NCBI GenBank assembly: GCA_964023275.1
Contig: OZ029918.1
Location: 19,572,361 to 19,636,360, forward strand
Direction of reading: 5' to 3'
Origin: Norana najaformis
Taxonomy: Eukaryota > Annelida > Clitellata > Crassiclitellata > Hormogastridae
DNA length: 64,000 nucleotides
Shown: positions 31,701 through 43,700 of the stretch, piece by piece
Numbering within the stretch: the stretch's first letter is position 1
How the letters are laid out: each line of letters begins with the position of its first letter
Position numbers and translations under genes: made by a program
Notes under the pieces: model-generated
Database searches by the model: none
What the model saw: only the letters and a program-made list of their open reading frames with translations
Told to the model about the DNA's origin: nothing

Positions 31701-34700
31701 AAAGCTCCAGGATCAGATGGATTATATCCAAAAGTTTTAAAAGAATTGGCCAACATCTTAAATGTTCCACTTGCTATACTGTTCAATAAGTCACTTCAGG
31801 AAGGAGTACTGCAAGAAGATTGGAAGTGTGCAATTGTCATTTTTATATTTAAAAAAGGGCTAAAAACTGAGGCAGGGAACTACACCAGTGCCATGCAAAG
31901 TTATGGAATCATTGCTAAGGGATAAAATGCTAAGACATTTAAAAGCAAATGAACTCTTGTCAGTAAACCAGCATGGTTTCACTAAAAAGAGATTTTGTCT
32001 CACTAACCTAGTAGAAACACTGGCAGAATGGTTAAGGGATATGGGATTGATGCCGTCTTTCTGGACTACCAGAAGGCTTTTGATACAGTGCCTCAACGAA
32101 GACTGATGAACAAACTCAAAGGATATGGGACTGGGGGGATGTTGCTGAAATGGATTCAAGATTTATTAACAAACCGAAAATGAGAGTGGTGCCTAATGGG
32201 CAAGTAACAGGTTGGACATGAGTTCTCAGCGGAGTTCCGCAAAGGATCAATGTTAGGGTCACTGTTATTTTTATCTATATAAATTAGATACCAGACATAA
32301 TAGAAAGTTCTGTGAAGATTGTAATTGTAATTGTAATTTGAGATTTATAAGTTGCCTCTTAGAGGATAAACTCAACAGAGGTGCTTCTGACCCGAAAAAG
32401 TAAAATCACTGTTAAACAGTACAGTCTTCAGGAGCCTGCGGAACACTGAGAGGGGGGAGAGAAAGGAGCTCAAGTCGCAATTCTCGAGGGAGACGATTCC
32501 AGCAAGTGAGACCAACATAGGCAAAGCTTCTGGACTGGGCCGCAGCGGTTCGCATTCGAGGGACAAACAGCAGATCCTGAGTGGCCGAGCGAAGGGTGCT
32601 ACGGCCCGGCCACGAGGAGACCAAAGTACAGAAGTCTATGAGGTAAAGCGGAGCAGAGCCAAGAACACAATTGCGCATGAGGGAGAGGATCTTAAAGTCG
32701 ACACGCTGCTGGACGGGGAGCCAGTGAAGAGTGTCACGAATATAAGACGAGATGTGGCCATATTTTTGGAATGCCCCCTATGAGACGAGCAGCAGAGTTA
32801 AGTACAGATTGCAGCTTAGCAGTTTTGGGTCGCGATAGGCCAGTAAAGATGGCGTTCCCAAAGTCAACCCTGGTGCAAATGAGGGCATGGACCAGAGTGG
32901 AGATAGCGTGAAAGGAAAGAATACGGGGAATGGTGCGGAGCTGACGAAGATGGTAAAAACAAGAGCGAGAGACGCTGTTGACATGAGCAGACAGGGTAAG
33001 CTCCTGATCCAACACAACCCCGAGATCCCGGACCGTTCTAGAGAAGGAGATATCCGGAAATCTCTGGCGTAAGGAGGAGAGATCGATCTTGGCGAGCTGC
33101 AATCGGCCAGCAAGCCAGACGAACTGGGTCTTGTTACAATTCACACGGAAGCGATTGGAGGACATCCATAGGTCAAGGAGAGAGGTGGCGTCGAGAATCC
33201 TCTAGACAAGGGCAGGGGCCGCCTCCGCCGGACCATGGGCATAAGCCTGGTTGTCGTCTGCATAGTGAAGGACGGCAACACTCAGTGGGAGGAGGCTCCG
33301 AGCTAGATCAGAGGTATATAAAATACAGAGGAGAGGAGAAGATGTTTGCTGATGACACAAAAATATGGAGAAAAATACAAAGTGAGGAAGATGAAGATTT
33401 TGCAGCAAGATCTAGATAAGATGGAAGATTACTCAAGGGAATGGCTATTAAAATTTAATGCTTCCAAGTGCAAACTTATGCAAACTGGGCCAAGGAAGAA
33501 AATGAACTATCATCTAATGAATGGAACAGATATTGTGAACCTAGAAGAGATTGAAATGGAGAAAGATTTGGGATCAGGGATCAATAAAGATCTAAAGTGA
33601 AGCCAGCAATGTAGAAAAGCAGCAAGTAAAGCAATGTCAGTTCTTGGTATGATAAAAAGAAGTTTCAATCACATAGATGTTGATAGTTTCAAGATACTGT
33701 ATAATACATATATTCGACCACATCTAGAATATTGTATCCAAGGTTTGGAGTCCCTATTACAAAAAAAAGACATAGAATGCCTGGAAAAAACAACAAAAAG
33801 AGCTACAAACTCATCAGAAGCCTAGCTAGGATGCCACATGAACAAAGACTTCAACAGTTGGGCCTATTTTCCTTAGAAAGAAGATTGAGAGGTGACCTTA
33901 TTGAGACCTACAAAATTTTACATGGACTCAAGAATATAGACAAGCAAACCTTCTTCCAGAGGGCAGCAACGGGACATTTAATAGGACACAATCTGAATCT
34001 TTATCGTTATAGGGTGCGATTGGACTTTAGAAAATTCTTCTTCAGGCAGAGGATTGTAGAGCACTGGAACGGGCTACCAGAAGAATATCTGTACCAAGCT
34101 TGAACAGTTTCAAGAAAGAGCATGATTGTTGGATGGAGAGACATTGGCACTAAAAGCCAATACAGCTTACTTAGCCTATTAACTGTAACTGTAACTAGCT
34201 GTAACGGAAGATTTACTGTTGCTTGGCCCAGACTATGGAACTCTATGCATGTATCTCATAATTTATAAAGGACCATTTAAGAATCTCTTAAATGCGCTGA
34301 ATGCTACAAATGTTTGCTTTGCAGGGTCTTAATTGGCCTTTAGATCATGACTGACAACTTTTTCGGGATGGCGATTCCTTACGAGGATCAGCTGCTCACA
34401 GGGAATCGTGTCTCCGTGCTGCGGATAACGCTTCTTCTTTTGACGGGACTCGCTCCGGATTTCGACTGACGCCTTGAGCATTTTTATTACTATTACTAGA
34501 GTGGCGCATTAGAAATTCTGTCGAATAGGTGTGTAATGCTCGCTATAGTACTTTGACATGTCTCTTAGTGTACTAAGTAGGGCTACATGTATGTGGAATT
34601 TGAGGCCACTCTACAGGAGTTATAATGCTACGTGAATATTCAGTTATTACTATTAATGTGCTAAGTTGGCCTCCTGGGGCCGTATGCATGAAGCCGTAGT

Positions 34701-40700: not shown

Positions 40701-43700
40701 CTCTACTACAGCGTCATGCATACCGCTTATCGTCGGCGGCTATTTGGGTAGTAGTTACTTGCCAAGTAGGCGCTATTTGGCTCGTAGCTTACTACGGCTT
40801 CATGCATACGGCCCCTGTTGTGTATCTTCTGAATACACAGGTATATAAAGGCTTATAATATACATATATGCATGCAAGTACACGTTGTGCAGACCCCGAT
40901 GACACCGTATTACATGGTGCTACTGCAGAAAGGCAATTAACGGCGAATGCGTGCACGAGGGTCGATCGCCGGTTGCTCAGAAGACAAGCCCAGGCAACCG
41001 ACTTTGTAAAGTGAGCGTATACAATATATTATGCGTAATTCTCCTATATATAGACGTGATGCATAGGCATACAGCCTAGACTATATAGACCTATATATTA
41101 TAGCATCACACGTGTCTCGGGCTCAAGCGCATTGCTCGCTAATTATGTTCAACCATGTAGCTAAATACAAACTTTAATAAAATATACGGGCTGATTATGA
41201 TAGGGCCTATATATTAGCCATGGTTAATATTGTCTACTGTTTGTATGTGTGCATAAGTTGTAGACGTAATCATAATAGGCAAGTTTCTGAGGATTTCTCA
41301 AGAGCAAAGGTGTTGACGATCCTTAAGAACTTTTCCCATTCTTATCCGCTGTTGATTAAGAGTGAGATTAAGAAACGAACGGGTGGTCGGTCCGATAACA
41401 TTCTATTTAGGCCTACTTCTCAGTCGGCTAACAGCGCAACGAACATATGGTCAACATGGTCTGCGCTGATGCTGTGTACACCACCTCACCTTGAGCCATT
41501 ACACGGCAGCAGCCTCGCCACTGATCGACGGAATGCAGCAGTGTCACTTGTCACTCCCATATCCGTGTAAGAGGCTATTAAACCACCGCGTGCATCATAC
41601 TTTCACGAGAAGAAAGAAAAATAACCTCTTCATCGACATTCCACTAGTTCCATTCCAAATCCTCTCAGTCAGCTCAGTCGGGAACATTTGTGAGAAAATG
41701 GATTAACCGATAGAGCACTGTGTTACCACCTCTGTTGTCCACTTGCAACTTGATTACTGTAATTTCGTTCAGTGAATTTAGATACCACTCAAATTAATCG
41801 TCTTTAGTCCGTCGGAAATTCTTTCGAGTAGAATCTCTTAACAATATAATAGGCCCACGATTACATCTTAAGCACAGCACTGGTTAAACACATCCCAACA
41901 CACTTATTACCCGCTCCAGTGCTAGTCATAATATCCGTTAGTTATTTGATTACAACCAGGTCTCGGGTCAGAGAACCAGCGTCACGGCATCTACGTGCTG
42001 TCTGTTCATTATCTGTTTTTTTTCTAACTTTCGGCCTCTTTTCTATGTTGACTACTTTTTCTCTCTTAACGGATTTATGTTCTAATCGGGTGAGTTCTCT
42101 CCATGCTTAACGTTTGCTACTTTTAACCGATTCTTCATCTAATATTTGTGCTTATCTTGCACCCTTTGTTTTTGTATGCCTACCTTTCCGCCATATTGAC
42201 TCCATCCAATGCACTCTCCATGACATATATTCCGCATAATGTATCTATCAATTATACTGGATCACACGAAAAATGTTTTCGCCTGCTACTAGGCATATGC
42301 TATGTGTACTACACTAAATCGAATCTGCTGATTCCAAATCTGAAGTCAGTTTTGTGTAGCACGTCAGGATCTTAAGATATGCAGCATACATGCTAATAAT
42401 TATGCAAACTCTGTACAGAACTAGTATTTCCTTATAACTGTGTAATTATGCAAACTCAGAGTATTCATAACAAGAAACAAAATGTTATTCTTTTATAACT
42501 TGAAATTAAAATATGTTTTAAAATGTAACATAAATGTATGTTTGTTACTCAGATGAAAGCATACACTTCGAAATTTTGTCTCTAGCTTAACTCTATAGGA
42601 GTTCAAAAGTGCTTTAGACACTTGGTCTTGCGCTTGTGAGTGGCCGCTGTTGCCCGCTGCAGAAACTAGCAGTAATCGCCCATCATGTTGGAATTGCAGT
42701 GGCCCTGATATCTTGCTTCAAAGGTGGAGATGTCTTGATGGAATCTCTCTCCATGCTCATCGCTTACATCACCCAAGTTTGGTGGGAAAAAATCCAGATG
42801 GGAATGTAAGAAATGTATTTTTAGTGACATCCGGCAGCCGAGTTGCTTATATGCTGTTAGCATGTTGCTAACGAGTTCAGCATAGTTCTCAGCTCGGTGA
42901 TTCCCAAGGAAGTTTTGCACCACCAACGTACATGCATCCCAAGCGGCAAATTCCAGTGGGTTGAGCTTGGTTCTAAATACAGCATCACGCATTAGTTCGC
43001 GGATTTCTGGCCCAATAAAAATTCCAGCCTTCAGCTTAGCATCAGTTTTGACGGCTCCAAATTTATCTCTCAGATACTGGAAGCCTTGTCCAGTACGATC
43101 CACTGCCACTACGAAATTCCTCATGAGGCCCAGTTTAATGTGAAGTGGTGGTAAGTACACTTTCAATGGATCAACCAATGGTTCGTGGTGCACGTTGTGC
43201 CGACCAACAATGGGCTCAGATCTAGGAGGCCACAGTTTCACTCTATAATGGTTGGTGTCATCACGACTGTTCCACAAGCACAAAAAGCACATATGTTTTG
43301 TGTACCCCAGCTGTAGGCCTAGAATAAGTGCTACCACTTTGAGGTCCGCACAGATGTTCCATTTGTGGTCTGAGTAGTTGATCACTTTCAAAATGAGTTT
43401 CATTGAATCATATGTCTCTTTGAGGCCTACAGCGTGGGCTATAGGAACAGACGGCTTTTCGTTACCATTGTGCACCAACACAGCTTTCAAGCTCGCTTGG
43501 CTGGAATCTATGAACAGTCTCCACTGATCAGGAACGTATTCGCAACCTAAATTCAGCATGAGACCGTTCACGTCAGTACAGAAACAGATATCATTTTCCA
43601 GTTTGTAATATGTAGCTAACTGTTTGTGACGATAACGGAAGTGTGATGTTGTGGTACCTTTTTGAAGCAAGTTCCACTCCCCTAGTCCCCTAGTCTGGAG

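Follow-up and report, generated by a model that had tools for sequence, protein, structure and literature searches.

Structure and identity of the palindrome

The window, a 64,000-nucleotide stretch of the Norana najaformis genome (C6:19572361-19636360; genome of 608 Mb in 17 contigs), contains a unit of ~6.1 kb in which two transposon copies, arms A and B, are mirror images around the trinucleotide CAG (Table 1). Self-BLAST of the window gave inverted matches between the arms of 1956 bp (98.36%) and 1866 bp (98.29%). The arm boundaries, the central CAG and the CTG on both outer sides had been given in an initial annotation of the sequence and were confirmed with one refinement: the terminal repeat at the central end of arm A is whole, and arm B starts at GCATGAAG, without the terminal 9 nt GGGCCGTAT. 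The arms were also aligned, a check proposed in the same annotation. Within an alignment of 26 copies, A and B differed in 36 of 2841 columns (1.27%) and at 10 indel places. Pairwise alignment of A and B alone gave 117 differences in 2992 positions (3.9%), because the 40-bp repeat region of B was forced onto unlike A sequence. The outer left and outer right flanks of the palindrome had no mirror symmetry, and its central junction occurred once genome-wide with up to 3 mismatches allowed. It is impossible that the palindrome arose by chance alone.

Table 1. Features of the palindrome (window coordinates) and the other end-to-end loci (contig coordinates)
Feature	Position	Strand	Remarks
Outer left CTG, target duplication	34674..34676	.	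CWG duplications also beside other copies
Arm A, predicted non-autonomous NuwaI-like element, 3133 bp	34677..37809	+	Both terminal repeats whole
Outer 27-bp terminal inverted repeat of arm A	34677..34703	+	
Transposase remnant in A, helix-turn-helix HTH_Tnp_4	36905..37084	-	E 1.9e-05, 24.6 bits, under cut-off 27
N-terminal open reading frame piece in A, starting MAAVIIRR	37411..37629	-	No notable Pfam match
Central terminal inverted repeat of arm A	37783..37809	-	31-bp inverted match 34673-34703 / 37783-37813
Central CAG	37810..37812	.	Common to both elements
Arm B, second copy, 3002 bp, inverted	37813..40814	-	Central terminal repeat without last 9 nt
N-terminal open reading frame piece in B, same as A's MAAVIIRR piece	37984..38277	+	
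Transposase remnant in B, HTH_Tnp_4	38534..38827	+	E 3.7e-05, under cut-off
40-bp tandem repeat, 6 copies	38789..39029	.	Arm B only
Outer terminal inverted repeat of arm B	40788..40814	-	
Outer right CTG, target duplication	40815..40817	.	
Inverted pair	C1:43853922-43860307		CTG/CTG/CTG; one arm minus ~200 bp near centre
Five-unit array of related element	C3:20501572-20518859		Unit 1 inverted, other four in one direction
Inverted pair	C4:31267843-31274364		Outer left CAG, outer right CTG; centre broken
Pair of relatives	C5:3954531		Inverted the opposite way; left partner truncated
Head-to-tail pair	C5:11085042-11091618		CTG/CAG/CTG; copies 0.03% different
Head-to-tail pair	C6:17580123-17585197		CTG/CTG/CTG; first copy internally deleted

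Both arms carry a terminal repeat of 27 bp, GGGCCGTATGCATGAAGCCGTAGTAAG, that starts with GGG, and the target duplications read CWG (W is A or T) instead of the TTA/TAA of classical PIF/Harbinger elements. The NuwaI group of the PHIS superfamily (Han et al. 2015) is described as having CWG duplications and terminal repeats of 12-61 bp with a GGG start (PMC4482050). As the CWG duplications and GGG ends fit this group, the elements were named non-autonomous NuwaI-like elements. Ten open reading frames (ORFs) of the window were scanned against Pfam. Two, one in each arm, matched a transposase family, both of them HTH_Tnp_4, a helix-turn-helix of DDE transposases, and both under the Pfam cut-off, and among the ten there was no match to a DDE catalytic domain or to a second ORF with a Myb/SANT domain. 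In the copies with listed ORFs, the transposase protein stops or is rearranged near GCI-G. With no catalytic domain and a broken transposase, the elements are therefore at most non-autonomous members of the NuwaI-like type.

On these sequence features, we classify each arm as a predicted non-autonomous element of the PIF/Harbinger (PHIS) superfamily, NuwaI-like. The copies resemble the NuwaI group in their CWG duplications, GGG terminal repeats and Harbinger-like transposase remnants; they differ in being without the catalytic part, and neither unequal W nor end-to-end dimers figure in the passages of the NuwaI description drawn on here (PMC4482050). The 5' parts of the transposase sit at the palindrome centre, so that by gene remnants the arms are head-to-head. 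What had been annotated as two head-to-head Harbinger elements is thus correct in inversion, orientation and superfamily, but the elements are NuwaI-like and non-autonomous rather than classical PIF/Harbinger. The duplications are 3 bp long, as had also been noted, but their motif is CWG and not the classical TWA.

End-to-end loci and unequal CWG duplications

DNA searches of the genome, in each of which the best 40 candidates were scored so that match counts are lower bounds, gave at least 41 matches to the outer 624 bp and at least 46 to the central 313 bp of the element. From the matched loci 26 complete copies were rebuilt, those without full sequence cover being excluded. The search for single-copy versions elsewhere, suggested in the initial annotation, yielded 16 solitary copies for which both flanks were read. 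In its extended form the target is CCWGG, with C at -2 in 20 of 28 cases.

Including the window, seven end-to-end loci with ten abutting junctions were found for this element and its relatives. For 50 randomly placed copies, the expected number of end-to-end pairs at the site density of the window is 0.0001 (CWG) to 0.003 (CCWGG), and by arithmetic about four times as many for ~100 copies. Seven loci against no more than ~0.003 expected for 50 copies means that these elements either insert at the ends of their own kind or join before landing. In the C1 dimer the arms belong to different subgroups: its A arm is nearest to the copy C6t_2 (0.42%), and arm differs from arm by 1.42%. The C4 dimer has 10 bp of filler sequence at its centre, and one of its ends is short of ~72 bp. 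The C3 array has CAG at all junctions and on both outer sides, the fourth junction carrying three extra C. Its unit 1 differs by 4.65 to 5.40% from units 2-4 and by 3.00% from unit 5. Units 2 and 3 are identical across 3522 bp, a hint at recent unequal exchange or an assembly repeat.

For the C1, C4 and C6 dimers, the joined outer flanks run unbroken in paralogous empty sites, and each of these dimers therefore occupies one original site. The triplets of the empty sites did not always match those of the filled ones. Five fetched C4 empty sites had CAA (filled site CAG left, CTG right), the single paralog of the C6 dimer, 85% alike, had CAG (dimer CTG on both sides), and the four fetched C1 paralogs had CTG twice and CCG twice (dimer CTG). 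Divergence of the paralogs could account for these differences. No empty sites for the C5 tandem or the C3 array were present in the best 40 candidates scored.

Three further candidates were not counted. C2:23587852-23594337, which by length might have been another dimer of 6.5 kb, is one element with internal insertions. At C7:15102908 a 17-nt spacer separates the two ends. At C3:15949219 the pair belongs to an apparently scrambled 1-kb element (C3:15948511-15949548) with CAA on both flanks and two terminal-repeat ends around an internal CAG.

Because plain duplication of CTG must leave CTG at the centre, yet the window has CAG, solitary copies were surveyed for unequal duplications. Genome-wide, 202 ends read CWG-GGGCCGTATGCA, and the survey took 194 of them, all 94 CTG ends and 100 of the 108 CAG ends. 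Facing CWG ends no more than 9 kb apart defined 61 elements; exclusion of 11 in the known dimers and array left 50 solitary copies, many of them known by end positions only. The survey requires an intact C and G, so changes at these bases are uncounted. W was equal on both sides in 40 of the 50 copies and unequal in 10 (20%, 95% interval 10-34%). Eight of the unequal copies were CAG..CTG and two CTG..CAG, a bias that is not significant (P 0.11). Point mutation was rejected as the source of the mismatches (P 2e-12, 6e-9 and 2e-4 at assumed rates of 0.7, 1.6 and 5% per element). In two of the ten, C7:5725943 and C8:5800546, an additional CWG triplet adjoins one end, and their mismatches may therefore have come about by another route, e.g. 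loss of a neighbour. The C7 element (986 bp) is present in inverted segment copies ~52 kb apart, C7:5725943-5726928 and 5778899-5779884. One C7 copy has the extra CTG triplet between flank and element, and its inverted duplicate is without it.

Empty sites were compared for one of the ten mismatched copies, C11:25144874-25148239, which has CAG on the left and CTG on the right. Its joined flanks matched the best 40 places scored, across the junction, and the target triplet was CTG in 16 of 16 fetched empty sites. The right side therefore carries the target base and the left side the other base, and the flanks were not exchanged. On the left, the base three positions outside W is also unlike all 16 empty sites, so that an unsampled empty copy bearing both changes may exist. 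In titles and abstract starts of the papers listed by searches of the open-access literature we recognised no report of unequal CWG duplications or of inverted NuwaI dimers; most subscription papers lie outside this scope and novelty is not established.

Origin of the palindrome

The explanation we favour, with a probability of about one half, is that the palindrome consists of two non-autonomous NuwaI-like copies, the second of which inserted into the CWG duplication of the first. A transposase encoded elsewhere would move such copies in trans. The first copy would insert at CTG, and a second close copy, possibly a sibling, would then insert in the opposite orientation into one of the CTG duplications beside it. 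If an excised element keeps the 3-nt CWG overhangs of its donor site, these would pair with the CWG overhang of the target except at W. With each W mismatch settled separately, a single insertion could turn CTG[A]CTG into CTG[A]CAG[B]CTG. Later, one terminal repeat would have lost 9 bp at the centre, and the arms probably exchanged some sequence.

In support of this reading, the ends are transposon-precise, the duplications read CWG, end-to-end insertion recurs in this element and its relatives, and solitary relatives show W mismatches. The mirror symmetry stops exactly at the terminal repeats, CTG borders it on either side and the flanks beyond are not mirrored, which favours transposon insertions. 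CAG throughout the C3 array matches the prediction of insertion into a resident duplication. The initial annotation had proposed either two insertions or an inverted duplication, with the outer CTG and central CAG as the clue. Two insertions are favoured here, not proved; the clue fits them, but it is not specific to the palindrome given the mismatched solitary copies.

As a tentative generalization, NuwaI-type insertion may proceed without gap filling, the donor overhangs setting the middle base. This would give a considerable fraction of the copies unequal duplications, make resident duplications landing sites and let palindromes and arrays grow. If A and T were used equally and repair were random, 25% of copies would be expected to be unequal, compatible with the observed 20% (P 0.51). 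In the mPing model of PIF-Pong-Harbinger excision, a 3-nt 5' staggered cut is made within the duplication (PMC4561436), which would leave complementary 3-nt overhangs on the element. The proposed scheme is like mPing in this cut, and non-matching middle bases were tested there at the donor site; it is unlike mPing in that the duplication there is TWA and that the passages cited concern donor-site repair, not a new insertion (PMC4561436). If the scheme is true, one base of the duplication comes from the donor site, so that genome data could reveal how the transposase cuts and joins and hint at the source of a copy. A target duplication is normally taken as a faithful copy of the target.

Several findings weigh against two successive insertions with donor overhangs. 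After a plain insertion into CTG the centre should read CTG, and the explanation of CAG rests on W mismatches. Both sides carry the same triplet, CAG or CTG, in 14 of the 16 solitary copies whose two flanks were read; the remaining two (ATG/CAG and TTG/CAG) differ at W plus one more base. The weak point of the overhang model is that W mismatch is scarce in the closest relatives of the window element, the loci matching the DNA searches. Unequal W was seen in 1 of these 15 versus 9 of the 35 others (P 0.25, not significant), and the single unequal copy has an extra triplet. No empty site for the window palindrome was present in the best 40 candidates scored. Finally, in a tree of the 26 copies arms A and B are sisters with support of 99/99, and they have five alleles in common that occur in none of the other copies.

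Four of the five exclusive alleles fall within 253 columns (P 0.011), and this clustering suggests conversion between the arms. It is the only argument left for such conversion; one from long identical runs was dropped because other pairs have longer ones (399 for A-B versus 594 for B and the C5 tandem). A and B are nearest to each other by a narrow margin, 1.27% versus 1.31% to the next nearest copy of A. Of the 36 variants found in one arm but not the other, 13 are shared with other copies and 23 are private; a few of the private ones fall in the repeat region, where the alignment is poor. To us, the kinship pattern points to two insertions of related copies and, afterwards, some exchange of sequence between the arms.

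The sister relationship, the exclusive alleles and the mutual proximity of A and B would also result from an in-situ inverted duplication, arising by sister-chromatid joining or a template switch, after which the arms diverged and received sequence from other copies by gene conversion. We regard this as rather unlikely. On the right, the palindrome stops precisely at a transposon end, where CTG follows in place of a mirrored left flank; the 13 one-arm variants found in other copies are not expected from a plain in-situ duplication, and the C1 dimer combines arms of different subgroups.

It is improbable that the pair was joined end-to-end at CAG, by array growth or by joining of excised copies, and later moved as a unit into CTG. 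CTG/CAG/CTG in both the window and the C5 tandem, as well as an array with CAG throughout, would fit such a composite move, and end-to-end joining of excised hAT elements is a known precedent (PMC2803484). However, the window junction has no second genomic copy. Unequal W at solitary copies means that CTG/CAG/CTG need not mark a composite move, and this move, at first our explanation of the pattern, was demoted after the solitary-copy survey.

We consider it very unlikely that the central base of a former CTG/CTG/CTG palindrome was later flipped or changed, e.g. by an arm exchange that turned the spacer over. CAG and CTG are reverse complements, W is the point of symmetry of the centre, and some arm-to-arm exchange is suggested; but unequal W occurs at solitary copies without a palindrome, and the C5 tandem, with only short inverted ends at its centre, shows the same change. 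An assembly artefact is barely credible: palindromes are hard to assemble and the structure is known here from the assembly alone, but the arms are separated by substitutions, indels and a repeat expansion, in keeping with the earlier argument against simple assembly folding, their outer flanks are not mirrored, and similar junctions occur at six other loci.

Losses at palindrome centres and comparable arrays

In the three dimers with the inverted arrangement of the window's pair, itself included, losses of 9 to ~200 bp affect 3 of 6 central arm ends. Loss of at least 5 bp within 250 bp of the same end was found in 2 of 20 other copies (P 0.06, weak) and at none of the 6 outer ends of dimer arms. 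In the C3 array, an intact inverted centre lies between arms that are 5.4% different. According to a review, small asymmetric central deletions stabilise palindromes in transgenes (PMC8701086), and the central losses seen here appear to agree with such an effect. In both cases a long inverted repeat has lost central sequence on one side; unlike the transgene palindromes of that review, these are natural transposon pairs, and their numbers are small (PMC8701086). The survival of the palindrome, which had been singled out as notable, is so, but it is not mysterious given the central losses and known stabilising deletions. Repeated landing of elements on their own duplications would supply naturally formed palindromes and tandems, along with one array, for studying how long palindromes originate and survive.

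Arrays of DNA transposons have been described in other systems. KolobokP multimers are likewise tandem units with a duplication at the outer ends only; there, however, the long terminal repeats are direct, units share a repeat, and inverted dimers are not described in the passages cited (PMC9587614). Coral arrays of miniature inverted-repeat transposable elements also consist of tandem non-autonomous copies, but these are of the piggyBac type and their growth is ascribed to replication slippage (PMC2872659).

Elsewhere in the window, a 689-bp direct repeat (89.7% identical) occupies 33513-34196 and 63013-63694; an ORF of 123 aa inside it (33732-34103) has no Pfam match. The window also contains a 53-bp tandem array of 6.5 copies (4101-4445) and a TAC microsatellite of ~49 units (20600-20745).

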